64,000 nt of DNA from Pseudomonadota bacterium (GTDB taxonomy: Bacteria > Pseudomonadota > Gammaproteobacteria > Steroidobacterales > Steroidobacteraceae): the NCBI GenBank assembly GCA_021792755.1, contig JAJYUA010000021.1, positions 1 to 64,000 on the forward strand, read 5' to 3'. Numbering within the stretch: the stretch's first letter is position 1; every line of letters starts with the position of its first letter. A program made the translations under genes and the position numbers. A model generated the notes under the pieces. That model worked only from the letters and a program-made list of their open reading frames with translations. It was not told the DNA's origin and made no database searches. Below, in pieces: positions 14,215 through 20,879 of the stretch.

Positions 14215-15825
14215 ATGATTAACGGAACCGTCGTCGATCTCTCGCGCATACAGTTTGCGGCCACCGCGCTCTATCACTTTCTGTTCGTGCCGCTGACGCT
14301 CGGGCTGAGCTTTCTTCTGGCCGCGATGGAGACCGTGTACGTCACCACCGGCAAGCCGATCTACAAGGAAATGGCGCAGTTCTGGGGCAAGCTCCTCATG
14401 ATCAACTTCGCCCTCGGCGTGGCCACCGGCCTGACCATGGAGTTTCAGTTCGGCACCAACTGGTCGTTCTATTCCGGCTTCGTCGGGGACATTTTCGGGG
14501 CGCCGCTCGCCATCGAAGGCCTGATGGCGTTTTTCATGGAATCGACCTTCATCGGGCTGATGGTGTTCGGCTGGGAGCGCCTGAGCAAGGGCCAGCATCT
14601 GGCGGTCACCTGGCTGGTGGCCTTCGGCTCGAACCTCTCCGCGCTGTGGATACTGGTTGCCAACAGCTTCATGCAGAATCCGCAGGGCGCGGTGTTCGAT
14701 CCGCTGACCATGCGCATGCAGCTGACCAGTTTTCAAAGGCTGATCTTCAATCCGGACGCGCAGTCGAAGTTCGTGCACACCAGCGTCGCCGGTTACGTCA
14801 CGGCGGCGGTCTTCGTCGCCGGCGTGAGCGCCTATTACATGCTGCGCAAGCGGCACATCGAGCTGGCCAAGCGCTCATTCCGCATGGCGGCGCTGTTCGG
14901 CGTGTTGGCCACGATCGCGGTGATCACGCTGGGCGATGCTCTGGGCTTCGTCGATGCGCGGGTGCAGCCGACCAAGCTGGCGGCGATGGAGGCGCTGTGG
15001 CAGTCGGAGGCGGCGCCCATGCCGTTCAACCTCATCGCATTCCCCGACCAGGCCAAGCGCGAGAACGCGGGCGCCGTGCGCGTGCCGTATCTGTTGTCGC
15101 TGCTGGTGACGCACTCGCTCACGGGCACGGTGCCGGGCGCCGATGCGCTCGAGCGGCGGGCGGTGGGGCGGATCGAGGGCGGCATACCGGCGGTGCAGGC
15201 GCTTCAGAGGCTCGCCAAGAGTCCGGGCAACTCCGCGGCGCTGGCCGAATTCGATGCGCATCGCAAGGATCTCGGCTACGGGTTCCTCGTGCAGCGCTAC
15301 GCGCCGGACCTGAACGAGGTCACTCCCGCACAGATGCGGCGGGCGGCGCGCGACATCATGCCGCCTGTGGCGGCGGTGTTCTGGTCTTTCCGGGTGATGG
15401 TGGCCCTCGGCCTGCTGATGCTGGCGTACTTCGTGATCGCCGTGCTGTATACGCTGCGCAACAGGATTCAGCGCAAGAACTGGTTGCTGAAGGTGGCGAT
15501 GTGGATGATTCCCGTGCCATTCATCGCCAATGAGGCCGGCTGGCTGGTGGCCGAGCTCGGCCGCCAGCCATGGACGGTGTTCGATGTGCTGCCGACCTGG
15601 ATGAGCGCCTCGACGCACAGCGTGGCGTACATGGTGTTTTCGCTGGTCGGTTTCGTGGCCCTGTACTCGATCTTCATCGCTGTCGAGATGTACCTGATGG
15701 TCCGGGCCATCCGGCTCGGGCCCACCGGGCACGAGGAGTCGGGCGGGCCGCCCCTGCAGCCGAGTCCCGCGCTCCCGGGGCGTGCGCTGGCCGCGGCGCC
15801 CCAGGGCCGCAGACTGGAGGACTGA
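14215..15825 (+). CDS. cydA: Cytochrome bd ubiquinol oxidase subunit I
   Basis: A 536-residue membrane protein carrying haems b558, b595 and d and the quinol site. Characteristic segments are QFAATALYHFLFVPLTLGLS near the N-terminus (haem-ligand histidine), EGLMAFFMESTFIGLMVFGW (conserved glutamates of the proton path) and the GRQPW block in the second half. It oxidises quinol with O2 at high affinity without pumping protons. GGAGG precedes the ATG. It opens the operon cydA-cydB-cydX-like-cydD-cydC. No clear FNR or ArcA site was seen in the 280-bp upstream gap. Confidence 0.96.
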   Translation: MINGTVVDLSRIQFAATALYHFLFVPLTLGLSFLLAAMETVYVTTGKPIYKEMAQFWGKLLMINFALGVATGLTMEFQFGTNWSFYSGFVGDIFGAPLAIEGLMAFFMESTFIGLMVFGWERLSKGQHLAVTWLVAFGSNLSALWILVANSFMQNPQGAVFDPLTMRMQLTSFQRLIFNPDAQSKFVHTSVAGYVTAAVFVAGVSAYYMLRKRHIELAKRSFRMAALFGVLATIAVITLGDALGFVDARVQPTKLAAMEALWQSEAAPMPFNLIAFPDQAKRENAGAVRVPYLLSLLVTHSLTGTVPGADALERRAVGRIEGGIPAVQALQRLAKSPGNSAALAEFDAHRKDLGYGFLVQRYAPDLNEVTPAQMRRAARDIMPPVAAVFWSFRVMVALGLLMLAYFVIAVLYTLRNRIQRKNWLLKVAMWMIPVPFIANEAGWLVAELGRQPWTVFDVLPTWMSASTHSVAYMVFSLVGFVALYSIFIAVEMYLMVRAIRLGPTGHEESGGPPLQPSPALPGRALAAAPQGRRLED

Positions 15826-15828
15826 GTC

Positions 15829-16965
15829 ATGGCGCCTTATGCAATCCTGCAAGTGATCTGGTGGCTGCTGCTCGGCGTGCTGCTGATGGGACTTGCGATC
15901 ATGGTCGGCATGGACATGGGGGTGGGCGCGATCCTGCGCTACGTCGGGCGCACCGATATCGAGCGACGCGTCGCCCTGAACATCATCGGACCGCACTGGG
16001 ATGGCAACCAGGTCTGGTTCATCCTGGGCGGTGGCGCCATCTTCGCGGCCTTTCCGTTGATATACGCCACCGCATTCTCCGGCTTCTACGTGGTGATGCT
16101 GCTGCTGTTGTGGACCATGATCATGCGTCCGCTCGGCTTCGAGTATCGCAGCCAGCTCGCCAACCCCGCCTGGCGCAACGTGTGGGACTGGGTCTTCCTG
16201 GTGAGCGCTGCGGTGCCGATGATCGTCTTCGGGGCGGCCTTCGGCAACCTGTTTCGCGGCGTGCCGTTTCACTTCGCGTGGGACTTGACCTCCTTCTACA
16301 CCGGCAGCTTCCTCGGGCTTCTCAACCCCTTCGCGATCGTGACCGGGGTGCTGGCGCTCTCGCTCTCGGCGATGATGGGGGCATTGACCGTGATGAACGG
16401 CGCCGAGGGCGCGATGTTTCAGCGTGCCCGCCGGCTCGCGCAGCTGGCGGCAGGCCTCGCGATCGTGCTGTTCGCGCTCTGCGGCATCTGGGTGCACGCG
16501 CTTGCCGGGTATCGGTTGCTCGGCGGACCCGGAGCGGGTGTGCCGCAGACCCCGCTGCAGCAGAGCGTCGCGATGGTGCCGGGGGCGTGGCTGTCGAACT
16601 ACGGCGCCCATCCGGTTCTGTGGCTGCTGCCGCTCGCCGGATTTGCCGGGATGGTCGGGGCGCTGCTCGCTGCGCGCACCGGGCGCTCCCATCTGGGCTG
16701 GTGGCTCGGTGCGGTGGCGTGGATCGGCGTGATCAGCACCGCCGGTGCGGCGCTGTTCCCGTTCATGCTGCCCTCGAGCACCGATCCGTCGGTGAGCCTG
16801 ACGGTGTGGAATTCCAGCTCCAGCAAGTTGACGCTGTTGTGGATGCTCGGATTCGCGGTCTTTTTCATGCCGCTGATTCTGTGGTACACCAGCTGGGCGT
16901 TCTGGGTCATGCGCGGCAAGGTCACCGCCGAGCGGATCACCCACGAAGACGAGCACGCTTACTGA
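15829..16965 (+). CDS. cydB: Cytochrome bd ubiquinol oxidase subunit II
   Basis: A 378-residue, roughly nine-helix partner of CydA. It shows the family N-terminus (LLGVLLMGLAIMVGMDMGVG), IGPHWDGNQVWFI and the C-terminal TVWNSSSSKLTLLWML, all diagnostic for CydB. It starts 3 bases after the cydA stop, so the two subunits are tightly co-translated, and is followed by the small CydX-like gene 10 bases later. Confidence 0.96.
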   Translation: MAPYAILQVIWWLLLGVLLMGLAIMVGMDMGVGAILRYVGRTDIERRVALNIIGPHWDGNQVWFILGGGAIFAAFPLIYATAFSGFYVVMLLLLWTMIMRPLGFEYRSQLANPAWRNVWDWVFLVSAAVPMIVFGAAFGNLFRGVPFHFAWDLTSFYTGSFLGLLNPFAIVTGVLALSLSAMMGALTVMNGAEGAMFQRARRLAQLAAGLAIVLFALCGIWVHALAGYRLLGGPGAGVPQTPLQQSVAMVPGAWLSNYGAHPVLWLLPLAGFAGMVGALLAARTGRSHLGWWLGAVAWIGVISTAGAALFPFMLPSSTDPSVSLTVWNSSSSKLTLLWMLGFAVFFMPLILWYTSWAFWVMRGKVTAERITHEDEHAY

Positions 16966-17214: not shown

Positions 17215-18990
17215 GTGCCCGCCGCGGGGCCGATTCCGGCCCCTCGTGCGCGCGATGCGGCACCGGGGGCAGAGTGGCTTCGGCGCGAGGCCGGGCGCAT
17301 CCGCAAGCCCCTGCTGGGCGCGGCGCTGCTCACCGGACTGCTGGCGCTCGCGCTGGTGGCCCAGGCGTGGCTGCTGTCGGGCCTGCTCGATCAGGCGGTG
17401 TTCGCGCATGCGCCGCTCAGGCGCCTGTGGCCGCTGTGGCTCGGCCTGCTGCTGCTCGCGTTGCTGCGTTTCGGGTTGAGCGTCGGCGCCCGGCGCACCG
17501 TATTTCGCGCGGCACAGCGTCTCTCCCAGGATCTGCGCGCCCGTCTGCTGCGCGGTGCGCAGGGACTGGGTCCCTACGGGCTGCGCGCGCAGTCGAGCGG
17601 TGAGCTCATCACCGGGCTGGTCGACGGGATCGAGGCCATTCTGGCCTATTTCGCGCGCTATTTGCCGCAGCTCGGCAGTGCGCTGCTCGTTCCGGCGCTG
17701 CTCGCGGTGTTCGTGTTTCCGGCGGACTGGCTCTCGGGTCTGGTGCTGCTGCTCACCGCGCCGCTGATTCCGCTGTTCATGACGCTGGTGGGCAAGGCCG
17801 CCGGGCAGGCGAGCGAGCGACGCTACGCGCAGCTGAGGCGCCTCGGCGCGGCATTCATCGAAGCGCTGGGCGGACTCGTCACGCTGCGTCAGCTCGGGGC
17901 CGCCGATCGCTTCGCGAGGCGGCTGGACGGCGAGAGCGAGGAGTATCGGCTGCTCACCATGCAGGTGCTGCGCATCGCGTTTCTGTCGACACTCGTGCTC
18001 GAATTCTTCTGCACGATCAGCATCGCGGTGGTCGCGGTGCTCATCGGCTTTCGCCTGCTATGGGGCGAGCTGCACCTGCGCGCGGGGCTGTTCGTGCTGC
18101 TGCTGGCTCCGGAGTTCTACCTGCCGCTGAGGGCCCTCGGCGGCATGCGCCACACGCGCATGGACGCGCTCGCGGCGGCGCAGCATCTCTCGGCGCTCGA
18201 TGACATCCCGTCCGCCCCGGGGGCATCGCTCGTAAGGGGCGCACGAGCGCCGCTCGAGGCCGCGCCGGAAATCCGCATCGAGCGCGTCAGCTATGCGCAC
18301 GGCGGCCGCGCAGCGGCACTTCGCGACTGCAGCATCGTGCTCGAGGCGCATCGTGTGACCGCTCTGGTCGGCGCCACGGGGGCCGGCAAGAGCACGCTGC
18401 TCAACCTGCTGTTGGGCTTCGCCGTGCCCGATGGCGGTCAGATATGCATCGATGGGGTCGATTTGACCGTGCTCGACCCGGCGCAGTGGCGTGCGCGCGT
18501 AGCCTGGGTGCCGCAGCAGACGCATGTGTTCGAGGGCAGCGTGCGTGACAATCTGCTGCTCGCAGCCGCCGACGCCGACGCCGACGCGCTGCGGCGCGCC
18601 GCCGAGCGCAGCGGTCTTGCGGCCGTGATCGAGCGTCTGCCGAAGGGTTGGGACACCCCGCTCGGGGAGCGCGGCTTGGGCCTCTCCGGCGGGGAGCTGC
18701 AGCGTCTGGCACTGGCGCGCGCGCTGCTGCGCGAGCGGGCGCGGGTCTGGCTGCTCGATGAGCCGACCGCGCATCTGGATCCCGACGGCACGCGCGCGGT
18801 GGAGGCGGTCATACGCGCCGCCGCCGCCACGCATACCGTGATACTGGTGGCGCACCGGCTGAGCGCGGCGCGCTCGGCGGACTGGGTGGCGGTGCTGCGC
18901 GACGGACGTGTCATCGAGCAGGGCACGCCGCGCGAGCTCGAGGGCTCGCGCGGGGCCTACGCCGATCTGTTGCAGGCGGAGCTGTCGTGA
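17215..18990 (+). CDS. cydD: CydD, ABC exporter subunit for thiols needed in bd-oxidase assembly
   Basis: A 591-residue fused membrane/ATPase half-transporter. Six hydrophobic segments (to about residue 320) precede a nucleotide-binding domain with Walker A GATGAGKST, signature LSGGELQRLALARALL and Walker B VWLLDEPTAHLD. With CydC it exports glutathione and cysteine to the periplasm, allowing maturation of cytochrome bd. The start is GTG 17215, 14 bases after the CydX-like gene. Its TGA overlaps the GTG used by the next frame (GTGA, 18987-18990), exactly where a repeat array begins. Confidence 0.93.
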   Translation: MPAAGPIPAPRARDAAPGAEWLRREAGRIRKPLLGAALLTGLLALALVAQAWLLSGLLDQAVFAHAPLRRLWPLWLGLLLLALLRFGLSVGARRTVFRAAQRLSQDLRARLLRGAQGLGPYGLRAQSSGELITGLVDGIEAILAYFARYLPQLGSALLVPALLAVFVFPADWLSGLVLLLTAPLIPLFMTLVGKAAGQASERRYAQLRRLGAAFIEALGGLVTLRQLGAADRFARRLDGESEEYRLLTMQVLRIAFLSTLVLEFFCTISIAVVAVLIGFRLLWGELHLRAGLFVLLLAPEFYLPLRALGGMRHTRMDALAAAQHLSALDDIPSAPGASLVRGARAPLEAAPEIRIERVSYAHGGRAAALRDCSIVLEAHRVTALVGATGAGKSTLLNLLLGFAVPDGGQICIDGVDLTVLDPAQWRARVAWVPQQTHVFEGSVRDNLLLAAADADADALRRAAERSGLAAVIERLPKGWDTPLGERGLGLSGGELQRLALARALLRERARVWLLDEPTAHLDPDGTRAVEAVIRAAAATHTVILVAHRLSAARSADWVAVLRDGRVIEQGTPRELEGSRGAYADLLQAELS

Positions 18991-20879
18991 AAAAATCGCC
19001 GGGAGCGATTTTTAACGCGGCGAAGCCGCGGCCCTCCAAGGGCGAGGCGCAGGAGGCGCCGAGTAAAAAATCGCCGGGAGCGATTTTTAACGCGGCGAAG
19101 CCGCGGCCCCCCAAGGGCGAGGCGCAGGAGGCGCCGAGTAACCCGCTGTTGCCACCTGTGCTGCGACGTTTGCTCGGCACGCTGTACCCCTATCGCGGCT
19201 GGATGGCCGGCGGCGCGGCGCTTGCCCTGCTTGCGGCGCTGGCCGCGATCGGCCTGATGGCGGTTTCGGGCTGGTTCATCGCGGCCATGGCGGTCGCCGG
19301 TGCCGGAGGCATCGTCATCAACTACTATACCCCCGCCGCGGCGATTCGCGCGTTCGCCCTCCTGCGCACCGGCGGCCGCTACGGCGAGCGTGTCGTCACG
19401 CACGAGGCGACGCTGCGCGGTCTCGCGGGGTTGCGCGCCTGGCTGTTTCGGCGATTGATCCCGTTGGCGCCGGCGCGCTTGTCGGCGCTGCGCAGCGCCG
19501 AGCTCTTCGCACGGCTGCGCGCCGACATCGATGCGCTGGAGCATTTCTATCTCGCCGTGCTGGTGCCGGCGGCGGTCGCGCTGCTCACCGTGGCGGCGGC
19601 TGTGCTCGTTTGCCTCATCGTGCTGCCCGCCGCCGCTTCGGTGCTGCTGCTTGGCGCGCTGTGCGCGGGCGTGCTGCTGCCGGTCTGGATGCAGCGCCGC
19701 GCCGCGCACGATGCCGCGCAAGCGGTGCGCGAGGGCGCCGCGTTGCGCGGCCTGCTGCTCGATGCGCTGCGCGGTCACGCCGAGCTGCTGGCCTGGGGAG
19801 GCGTCGCCGCGCACAGCCGGCGCATCGATGCGCTGGCGGCCCGGGTGGATGCGCGCCGGAGCCGCATCGAGCTGCTGCAGGCGGTGACCGGCGGCGCGGT
19901 CGGGCTGTTCGCGCAGCTGACGCTGCTTCCCGTGCTGGCGTTCGCCCTGACGGCGGCGCATCGCGGCACACTGGCGCCGTCGCTGGTGGTGATGCTGTCG
20001 CTGTTGACGTTGGCTTCGTTCGAGGTGATCGCGCCGCTGTCGGAGGCGCTGGCGCAGTGGCAGGCGACTCTCGTCGCCGGCGCGCGCGTGTTCGAGCTGG
20101 CCGATACGCCGCCGGCTTTCGTCGAGCCCGACAGCTGTGCGCCCCTGGCGCCGGCTGCCGCCATCGTGTTCGAGGGCGCCCGCCTGCGCTATGCCGCGGA
20201 TGCGCCCTGGGCGCTCGATCGCGTCGACCTCGCGCTGGCGCCGGGAGCCCGGGTGGCCGTGGTCGGCGCATCGGGAGCGGGCAAGAGCTCGCTGCTCGCG
20301 GCGCTGCTGAAGCTGTACCCGCTGCAGGAAGGACGCGTGCTGTTCGCCGGCCAGTCCGTGCAGGCGCTGCAGGGGGACGTGCTGCGCCGGCGCATCGCGG
20401 TCATCGCGCAGCAGCCGGTGCTGTTCAACCTGTCGTTGCTCGAGAACCTGCGGTTGGCGGCGCCCGAGGCCGACGCCGGGAGGATCGAGTGCGCCGTCGG
20501 GCTGGCTCAGCTCGATCCATTCGTGGCCTCTTTGCCCGCGGGGTATGACACCGTGTTGGGCGAGGGGGGGGCGCTCGTCTCCGGCGGCGAGGCGCGGCGG
20601 ATCGCGATCGCGCGCGCACTGCTGCAGGATGCGCCGGTGCTGGTGCTAGATGAGCCGACGGAGGGCTTGGATGCGCGCACGGCGCATGACCTGTACTCTG
20701 CATTGGATGCGGCGGCGCGCAATCGGACGCTGCTCCTCATTACGCACCGCCTGAGCGGCCTCGCCCGCCTCGTGGACGAGGTCGTGGTGATGGAGGCTGC
20801 TCGGGTCATCGAGCGGGTCCCGGTAAGCGATTATCTTGCCCGCGAGCGCACCGCCCGTATGGCCGATTCCGGAGGCTGA
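18987..20879 (+). CDS. cydC: CydC, ABC exporter subunit, with repeat-encoded N-terminal extension
   Basis: As drawn it is 630 residues from GTG 18987. The first 51 residues are the start plus two copies of a 25-residue repeat (KKSPGAIFNAAKPRP...). CydC-like sequence begins near LLPPVLRRLLGTLYPYRGW, with VSGWFIAAMAVAGAGG typical of the first membrane helices. Walker A is GASGAGKSS, the signature VSGGEARRIAIARALL, and Walker B VLVLDEPTEGLD. In-frame TTG 19149 and GTG 19158 lie after the repeats; the latter would give 573 residues, the usual family length. So either the repeats are translated or they are an intercistronic element and initiation is downstream. The cydD overlap (GTGA) favours the first, the length favours the second. 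Confidence 0.9.
   Translation: MKKSPGAIFNAAKPRPSKGEAQEAPSKKSPGAIFNAAKPRPPKGEAQEAPSNPLLPPVLRRLLGTLYPYRGWMAGGAALALLAALAAIGLMAVSGWFIAAMAVAGAGGIVINYYTPAAAIRAFALLRTGGRYGERVVTHEATLRGLAGLRAWLFRRLIPLAPARLSALRSAELFARLRADIDALEHFYLAVLVPAAVALLTVAAAVLVCLIVLPAAASVLLLGALCAGVLLPVWMQRRAAHDAAQAVREGAALRGLLLDALRGHAELLAWGGVAAHSRRIDALAARVDARRSRIELLQAVTGGAVGLFAQLTLLPVLAFALTAAHRGTLAPSLVVMLSLLTLASFEVIAPLSEALAQWQATLVAGARVFELADTPPAFVEPDSCAPLAPAAAIVFEGARLRYAADAPWALDRVDLALAPGARVAVVGASGAGKSSLLAALLKLYPLQEGRVLFAGQSVQALQGDVLRRRIAVIAQQPVLFNLSLLENLRLAAPEADAGRIECAVGLAQLDPFVASLPAGYDTVLGEGGALVSGGEARRIAIARALLQDAPVLVLDEPTEGLDARTAHDLYSALDAAARNRTLLLITHRLSGLARLVDEVVVMEAARVIERVPVSDYLARERTARMADSGG
18990..19139 (+). repeat. Tandem pair of 75-bp palindrome-rich repeats at the cydD/cydC junction
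   Basis: Copy 1 is 18990-19064 and copy 2 is 19065-19139; the copies differ at one base (19035 T versus 19110 C). Each unit folds into three hairpins. In copy 1 they are: 9-bp arm AAAAATCGC (18991-18999 with 19005-19013), 6-bp arm CGCGGC (19016-19021 with 19025-19030, loop GAA) and 5-bp arm GGCGC (19046-19050 with 19056-19060). The unit is 25 codons long and open in the cydC frame, so the array encodes two 25-residue repeats if translated. The array begins on the last base of the cydD stop codon. Confidence 0.95.

Follow-up and report, generated by a model that had tools for sequence, protein, structure and literature searches.

Between cydD and cydC in the 64,000-nucleotide stretch of Steroidobacteraceae DNA analyzed here (hereafter, the window), two nearly identical 75-bp palindromic units lie within an open reading frame (ORF), which raises the question of what they are, how they came to be there, and whether they are translated. 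On the evidence given herein, we consider it highly probable that a non-autonomous element, some 75 bp long and able to form four hairpins, stands here twice in tandem, that it was inserted after the GTGA stop/start overlap of the two genes and is read as an N-terminal tag of CydC, and that its family is spread through the Gammaproteobacteria.

At the junction, the TGA stop of the upstream gene cydD (17215-18990, 591 aa; ORF with Pfam ABC_membrane and ABC_tran domains) overlaps the start of cydC (18987-20879 including the stop codon, 630 aa; ORF with Pfam ABC_tran), and the resulting GTGA (18987-18990) is followed by two 75-bp units arranged head to tail and 74/75 identical; all window features described here lie on the + strand. 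A Shine-Dalgarno-like GGAG at 18978-18981, located 5 nt before GTG 18987, would serve as the initiation signal of cydC. The array gave a Tandem Repeats Finder (TRF) score of 297, by far the highest of the seven TRF rows in the window. An earlier note, made from the letters of this DNA, had placed the units at 18990-19064 and 19065-19139 and described the cydC frame as open through both. The two 75-bp units, their identity, and the open frame were all confirmed. The boundaries of the repeat can be shifted by one position, however, and comparison with element-free loci shifted the start by one base, placing copy 1 at 18991-19065 and copy 2, the tandem duplicate with one base different, at 19066-19140, directly 3' of GTGA. 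Copy 1 reads KKSPGAIFNAAKPRPSKGEAQEAPS in the cydC frame, and the open frame supported the view of that note that the array adds two copies of a 25-residue peptide to the CydC frame. The frame yields 630 aa, including this 2 × 25-residue extension, from GTG 18987 and 573 aa, that is, 57 codons fewer, from the downstream GTG at 19158-19160; TTG 19149 represents a further in-frame alternative.

As for the origin of the array, 24 cydC loci were read, of which 18 from the same genus were counted and six from other genera (two without alignment) were excluded. Among the 18 loci, two were filled, namely those of the window genome (G000) with two copies and of the same-genus genome G003 with one, another was truncated (L176), and 15 were element-free, displaying a bare 4-bp NTGA overlap in 12 cases, TGATG in two, and a different arrangement in one. 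The insertion amounted to exactly 75 nt per copy directly 3' of GTGA, and both the cydD stop and the cydC start were retained. When cydC and gatB sites with the element were compared with those lacking it, no target duplication was seen beyond a possible single A. Since the element was found only in G003 and G000, in one copy and in two, these observations point to a recent insertion followed by a still more recent duplication, in accord with the very recent duplication that the earlier note had deduced from the near-identity of the copies.

The unit was by no means confined to the array. A search of its own genome and of relatives, as had been advised, was carried out. The window unit matched 10 own-genome places at E ≤ 1e-3, both array units included, and the family consensus matched 17, with further copies in relatives; the own-genome BLAST at E ≤ 10, the weak end of which consisted mostly of chance palindromes, was left out of the counts. 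The mobile repeat suspected earlier was thus found to be dispersed. Consensus matches were present in 19/41 genomes of the genus, own included, all of which (G003, G014, G018, G022, and G036 among them) are drafts. In addition, the consensus furnished with tRNA-type flanks matched 57/229 class genomes (own included) in 50/196 genera, that is, about a quarter of the sampled class genomes. An exact core pattern occurred in 102 stretches in named genomes, and the best 80 of the 102 came mostly from gammaproteobacterial metagenome-assembled genomes (MAGs), with Alteromonas, Idiomarina, Salinicola, and Rheinheimera also represented; two of the best 80 stood in records titled outside the Gammaproteobacteria, a Filomicrobium MAG (L062) and Desulfobulbus sp. 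Tol-SR (L072). In Escherichia coli, 3564/5426 genomes matched the consensus and 3950/5426 matched the E. coli sequence of the element, with a median of two places per positive genome, the viewed loci being the rrn terminator region. The window array had no match in the plasmid and phage collections, and the E. coli element sequence matched 26/72,556 plasmid records, some of chromosome size. Head-to-tail copies recurred at hisB and gatB of G036, in L051, and in L122. No description of this element family was found among the matches listed in open-licence literature searches.

Folded as RNA, one unit formed four hairpins rather than the three previously stated, with a minimum free energy of -37.2 kcal/mol and z = -2.43 (5/200 shuffles folded at least as well). 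This fourfold architecture, the NTGA site, and the copies at tRNA and rRNA tails are all absent from the earlier note. In copy 1, hairpin 1 spans 18991-19013 (18991-18999/19005-19013) and is the most conserved in sequence, with compensatory changes, while hairpin 2 at 19016-19030 (19016-19021/19025-19030) is variable in sequence with its pairing mostly retained in the fixed-length set of copies. Hairpin 3 at 19031-19043 (19031-19035/19039-19043) was supported by folding and by the fixed-length set, and hairpin 4 at 19046-19060 (19046-19050/19056-19060) by folding, alignment, and the fixed-length set. In 46 distinct copies of 77 nt, standard pairs filled 91.6% of the cells vs. 33.0-45.4% with the partners slid by 1-3 positions, and two-sided changes were observed at 14/25 pairs in 88 cells vs. 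7-11 pairs in 15-26 cells when slid. RNAalifold on a gapped MAFFT alignment of 64 sequences supported hairpins 1 and 4 but not hairpins 2 and 3, the length of hairpin 2 being variable, and the latter two hairpins are therefore assigned from the fixed-length set. Upon folding of 122 distinct full copies, four hairpins were obtained in 90, three in 14, and two in 18. By eye, L125, L127, and L073 each displayed hairpin 1 followed directly by an inverted element copy, forming composite inverted pairs that share hairpin 1.

The in-frame position at cydC was found to be one of many in the genus, where 23/33 distinct copies following NTGA were fused in frame to a recognizable gene, giving an N-terminal tag of about 25 residues (MTKSPGAILDxAxPRPRRGEAQDGPS) of basic character, in which Pro and Gly are abundant. 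A Pfam domain above cut-off was detected in 18/18 tagged proteins scanned (17 of the 23 and L006), which represent about 17 gene families. These included HisB, GatB, TrpA, TrpC, BioD, MurG, SdhD (two), GmhB, PurE, KdpC, PyrF, and CydC, as well as a 4Fe-4S protein, a beta-propeller-like protein, a Mur ligase, a class-V aminotransferase, and a response regulator, the names being taken from the Pfam domain and from reading of the sequence; the other six of the 23 fusions are HisB, GatB, or GmhB by likeness to the scanned ones. In G003, for instance, the element was in frame with PurE (L283:701-1273). At the gatA/gatB junction, 30 examples of which were read from 39 places, the full tag was present in G014, G022, and G036 (double), decayed in G000 and G018, and absent in 25. 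The decayed tags of GatB (G000, G018), SdhD (G000, G036), and TrpC had lost the four-hairpin fold with the frame kept, which is as expected if it is the reading frame rather than the hairpin fold that persists after insertion.

Several of these sister-species genes offer no other start before the conserved core. Neither ATG, GTG, nor TTG was found between the tag and the core of GatB, HisB, BioD, TrpA, and the response regulator; the first start-type codon of HisB is codon 42, already past the DRDGT motif, and in BioD the start-type codon at position 40 falls in the P-loop. PyrF was no longer counted as a forced fusion, since codon 59, where its Pfam domain begins, is a GTG. Unless a rarer start codon is used, the tag of GatB, HisB, and TrpA has to be translated at least in part, given that no ATG, GTG, or TTG separates it from the core. 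Most tags themselves contain a TTG, at codon 9, which makes a shorter tag possible. In the case of CydC itself, we infer translation of the tag, although a start at GTG 19158 would cost the protein just a few of its native residues.

An intercistronic control element, whose hairpins would separate CydD from CydC with CydC starting from TTG 19149 or GTG 19158 and the array not coding for protein, would account for the four stable hairpins per unit, the AGGAG in the loop of hairpin 4 (AGGAGG with the next base), and the in-frame occurrence of both codons; purE of the window genome, too, probably starts at an ATG derived from the element, as its sequence suggests. However, the AGGAGG of copy 2 (19126-19131) stands upstream of TTG 19149 and GTG 19158 by 17 and 26 nt, respectively, which exceeds the spacing of a usual site, and GTG 19158, with no Shine-Dalgarno sequence at the usual distance, is disfavoured. 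Moreover, the NTG of the overlap is the start in relatives, GatB, HisB, and TrpA have no later start before the core, and decayed copies lose the hairpins and keep the frame. We therefore regard such an element as improbable, and the alternative raised in the earlier note, an untranslated control element with CydC starting from GTG 19158, as the less supported one.

Returning to the array as an inserted and translated element, we propose that an activity moving the element to sites after GA would have placed a copy directly after the GTGA of cydD/cydC, without visible target duplication, and that tandem duplication would have followed. Insertion at NTGA would keep the upstream stop and the downstream start, provided that the unit has no stop codon and a length divisible by three; being 75 nt long and free of stops, the unit at cydD/cydC leaves the normal end of cydD in place. 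Ribosomes stopping at TGA would re-initiate at the overlapping GTG and read the basic, Pro/Gly-rich tag of 2 × 25 residues, and coupled ribosomes arriving from the upstream gene would unwind hairpins that would otherwise block initiation. Start/stop overlaps would thus be permissive, because both genes stay intact and the hairpins would be unwound by the coupled ribosomes. With time, the hairpins would decay while the reading frame stays, and the tag is probably an unstructured extension, which we infer to be near-neutral. Copies at start/stop overlaps represent a natural test of the tolerance of coupling to structure and of the origin of N-terminal extensions. They also call for caution in annotation, as such N-terminal extensions can be real starts and not mis-called ones.

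Several observations weigh against a mobile element translated in this manner. Ten of the 33 NTGA copies in the genus were not shown to be fused: the frame closes within 65 codons in L216, L209, L252, L245, L004, L278, and L267, and L263, L264, and L287, which were counted as unfused, have ORFs of at least 197 aa to which no gene identity was assigned. At purE of G000 (L004:1490-1580), the tag frame ends after 23 codons. Outside the genus, 0/7 NTGA copies open into an ORF of more than 72 codons, and the in-frame fusions are therefore, as far as seen, a feature of this genus. G003 (L309) has no GatB tag, so that independent gains, clean loss, or recombination must be assumed, and G000 (L321) and G018 (L313) have the tag in decayed form. 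For cydC alone, TTG 19149 as well as GTG 19158 is a formally possible start that removes few native residues. Furthermore, 75 nt was the commonest length also among copies outside NTGA, T-loop (see below), and tandem sites (30/58). With 75 nt prevailing there too, a length divisible by three cannot in itself be taken as evidence of selection, and the length bias modulo three was dropped as a proof of it; at genes, such lengths may reflect filtering among the lengths that exist rather than selection for them. Lastly, no mobilising enzyme was found in the genus genomes, in which Y1_Tnp and RVT_1 were the domains searched.

The landing sites of the element were examined in 138 copies. GA preceded the element in 91, CA in 30, and TA in eight, and A followed it in 103; the copies have a CAAAATCG-like beginning, 123 started with C, and 94 ended in GAGTA or GAGCA. 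Two targets were prominent, namely the T-loop of tRNA 3' tails, where the element separates TTCGA from ATCC, and NTGA. Outside the genus, the T-loop class comprised 86/147 distinct copies and NTGA 7/147, compared with 13/119 and 40/119 in the genus, part of the outside-genus loci having been retrieved with a query carrying tRNA flanks. These NTGA numbers came from a laxer filter; under a stricter one, all loci together gave 26 NTGA copies, 16 of them divisible by three in length and opening into an ORF of at least 100 aa, and the 23/33 fusions given above are a separate, genus-only count. Among 86 T-loop copies in all loci then collected, ARAGORN located a tRNA within 500 nt upstream in 58, one on the opposite strand, and the joined flanks gave a whole tRNA in at least eight, a lower bound because the right-hand border chosen by the script was often off. 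The lengths of 46 T-loop copies were spread over all remainders modulo three (17, 13, and 16 for remainders 0, 1, and 2), and the element is therefore not primarily a coding unit. In L206:1360-1620, an intact tRNA-Arg gene precedes another copy of its own 3' tail, in which the element separates TTCGA from ATCC, and the same arrangement, an intact tRNA gene and a second own 3' tail whose T-loop is split by the element, was noticed in L048:1480-1700, L046, and L077.

In E. coli BL21 (L358:1420-1620, at about 3284.4 kb of the record), a 5S gene was followed, by eye, by a terminator-like hairpin, GGA, the element, an 18-nt repeat that combines the 3' end of 5S with the bases downstream of it, and a further terminator-like hairpin. 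This 5S-downstream segment is presumably of the type called rrnB T1-T2, a stretch found in many expression vectors. Three of the four E. coli places viewed (L357-L360) were at the 5S site beside yhdZ, and L357 has an IS3 transposase gene on the other side; in L359:1501-1570 (E. coli AML001_ev03), behind lacI, the neighbours of the element are a lacZ-like gene that is broken and a fragment of a relaxase. The E. coli rrn element has the same hairpin order and sequence pattern, with 82.9% identity to the family consensus. Together with the tRNA-tail copies, it matches the window unit in the hairpin 1 core, the order of the four hairpins, the A on its left flank (mostly as GA), and a GAGTA-like right end, which is CCATA in E. 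coli. It differs in its position beside a stable RNA, and in the viewed rrn loci no annotated gene covers it.

These locations, together with the strong covariation of the hairpins, would also suit a conserved structured RNA, either a small RNA or a part of stable-RNA processing or termination, that was inherited in place beside the tRNA and 5S genes of the class and of which the gene-start copies are stray duplicates. In line with this, Rfam RF02902 (AaHKsRNA22, Aggregatibacter sRNA 22) gave an end-to-end match with a similar hairpin order at 37.5 bits vs. a gathering threshold of 39.8, and AaHKsRNA22 may, from this resemblance, be a Pasteurellaceae member of the element family. In 20 other loci, the element received no Rfam match at gathering level, and three E. 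coli loci gave none at E ≤ 0.01. Inheritance in place nevertheless appears unlikely, as spreading is required by the varying occupancy of cydC and gatB among genomes of a single genus, by the tandem copies, and by the 17 gene families. Apart from this, the element may have an RNA role at tRNA and rRNA tails.

With regard to known mobile palindromes, Rickettsia palindromic elements are described as small palindromic repeats of about 150 bp situated in frame in conserved protein genes and between genes (PMC2229807, PMC10969869), such in-frame repeats being unusually frequent in Rickettsia (PMC10969869), and terminal inverted repeats are assigned to them (Table 1 of PMC2229807). Compared with the elements as portrayed there, the window element is likewise in frame in several unrelated conserved genes and encodes a recognizable peptide, and the resemblance to Rickettsia put forward in the earlier note thus holds for behavior. 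It does not extend to build: the window element belongs to another bacterial class, measures 75 rather than about 150 bp, and is composed of four consecutive hairpins whose ends are unpaired with each other, without terminal inverted repeats, and the fusions examined here sit directly after NTGA at the gene start. A family of another build than that of Rickettsia does the same in Gammaproteobacteria, at the start/stop overlap. The in-frame cases of ERIC, YPAL, and Correia elements (reviewed in PMC2229807) work alike. A miniature inverted-repeat transposable element of a DDE transposon was rejected on the grounds that neither terminal inverted repeats nor, at the cydC and gatB sites, target site duplication beyond a possible single A was found. 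HEARO RNAs, which are inserted at ATGA or GTGA, have a far greater length and are associated with an endonuclease gene; in a comparison by description only, NTGA is one of several targets of the window element, mostly ending in GA. Another identity considered, boxC of E. coli, was not confirmed.

A repetitive extragenic palindromic (REP)-type element moved by a Y1 tyrosine transposase (RAYT) is very unlikely. GTAG/CGTC REPs are palindromic, some are intragenic and many lie between genes of the same direction, and GTAG ends often give a TAG stop (PMC3733652). The window element is similarly a small palindromic unit, high-copy in some genomes and with some copies inside genes, but it has no GTAG or CGTC end and, at about 75 bp with four hairpins per unit, exceeds the 20-40 bp of REPs. 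Y1_Tnp was detected in 11/41 draft genomes of the genus, comprising 3/9 copy-rich genomes (at least 11 consensus matches; G003, G036, and G063) and 8/32 others, with none in the other six copy-rich genomes (G000, G014, G018, G022, G032, and G035), all drafts. The reverse transcriptase domain RVT_1 occurred in 7/9 copy-rich vs. 13/32 other genus genomes, a weak association that makes a reverse transcriptase a weak candidate for the mobiliser. That the tandem duplication is an artefact of what looks like a draft assembly of 57 contigs is hardly credible, given that the units differ by one base, head-to-tail copies recur at other sites, and the single copy in G003 shows the insertion itself to be real.

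Tentatively, and as a possibility we hold with less than even confidence, all these copies may represent a mobile hairpin element that is present across the class and lands by a rule of its own, mostly 3' of GA, at tRNA-tail T-loops, the 5S tail, and NTGA overlaps. Coupling junctions would have become a landing site in one genus, where many housekeeping enzymes would carry the same translated tag, the E. coli rrn element would be a fixed relict, and targeting of RNA or single-stranded DNA by a new enzyme would be the common theme.

Upstream of the array in the window, cydA (14215-15825), named from its translation, and cydB (15829-16965), supported by Pfam as are cydD and cydC, precede these two genes in the order cydA, cydB, cydD, cydC. 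A third recurrent landing context was noticed in L218, L222, L223, L224, L231, L232, L241, and others, in which GGCCGCGCA stands before the element and an (A)CGCGGCAGG-like sequence after its final A, the flanks being able to pair around the element. In L009:1500-1582, a copy lies between convergent genes that are SufT-like and DUF2249-like as judged from their sequences, and it may form the C-terminal codons of the DUF2249-like gene on the other strand.

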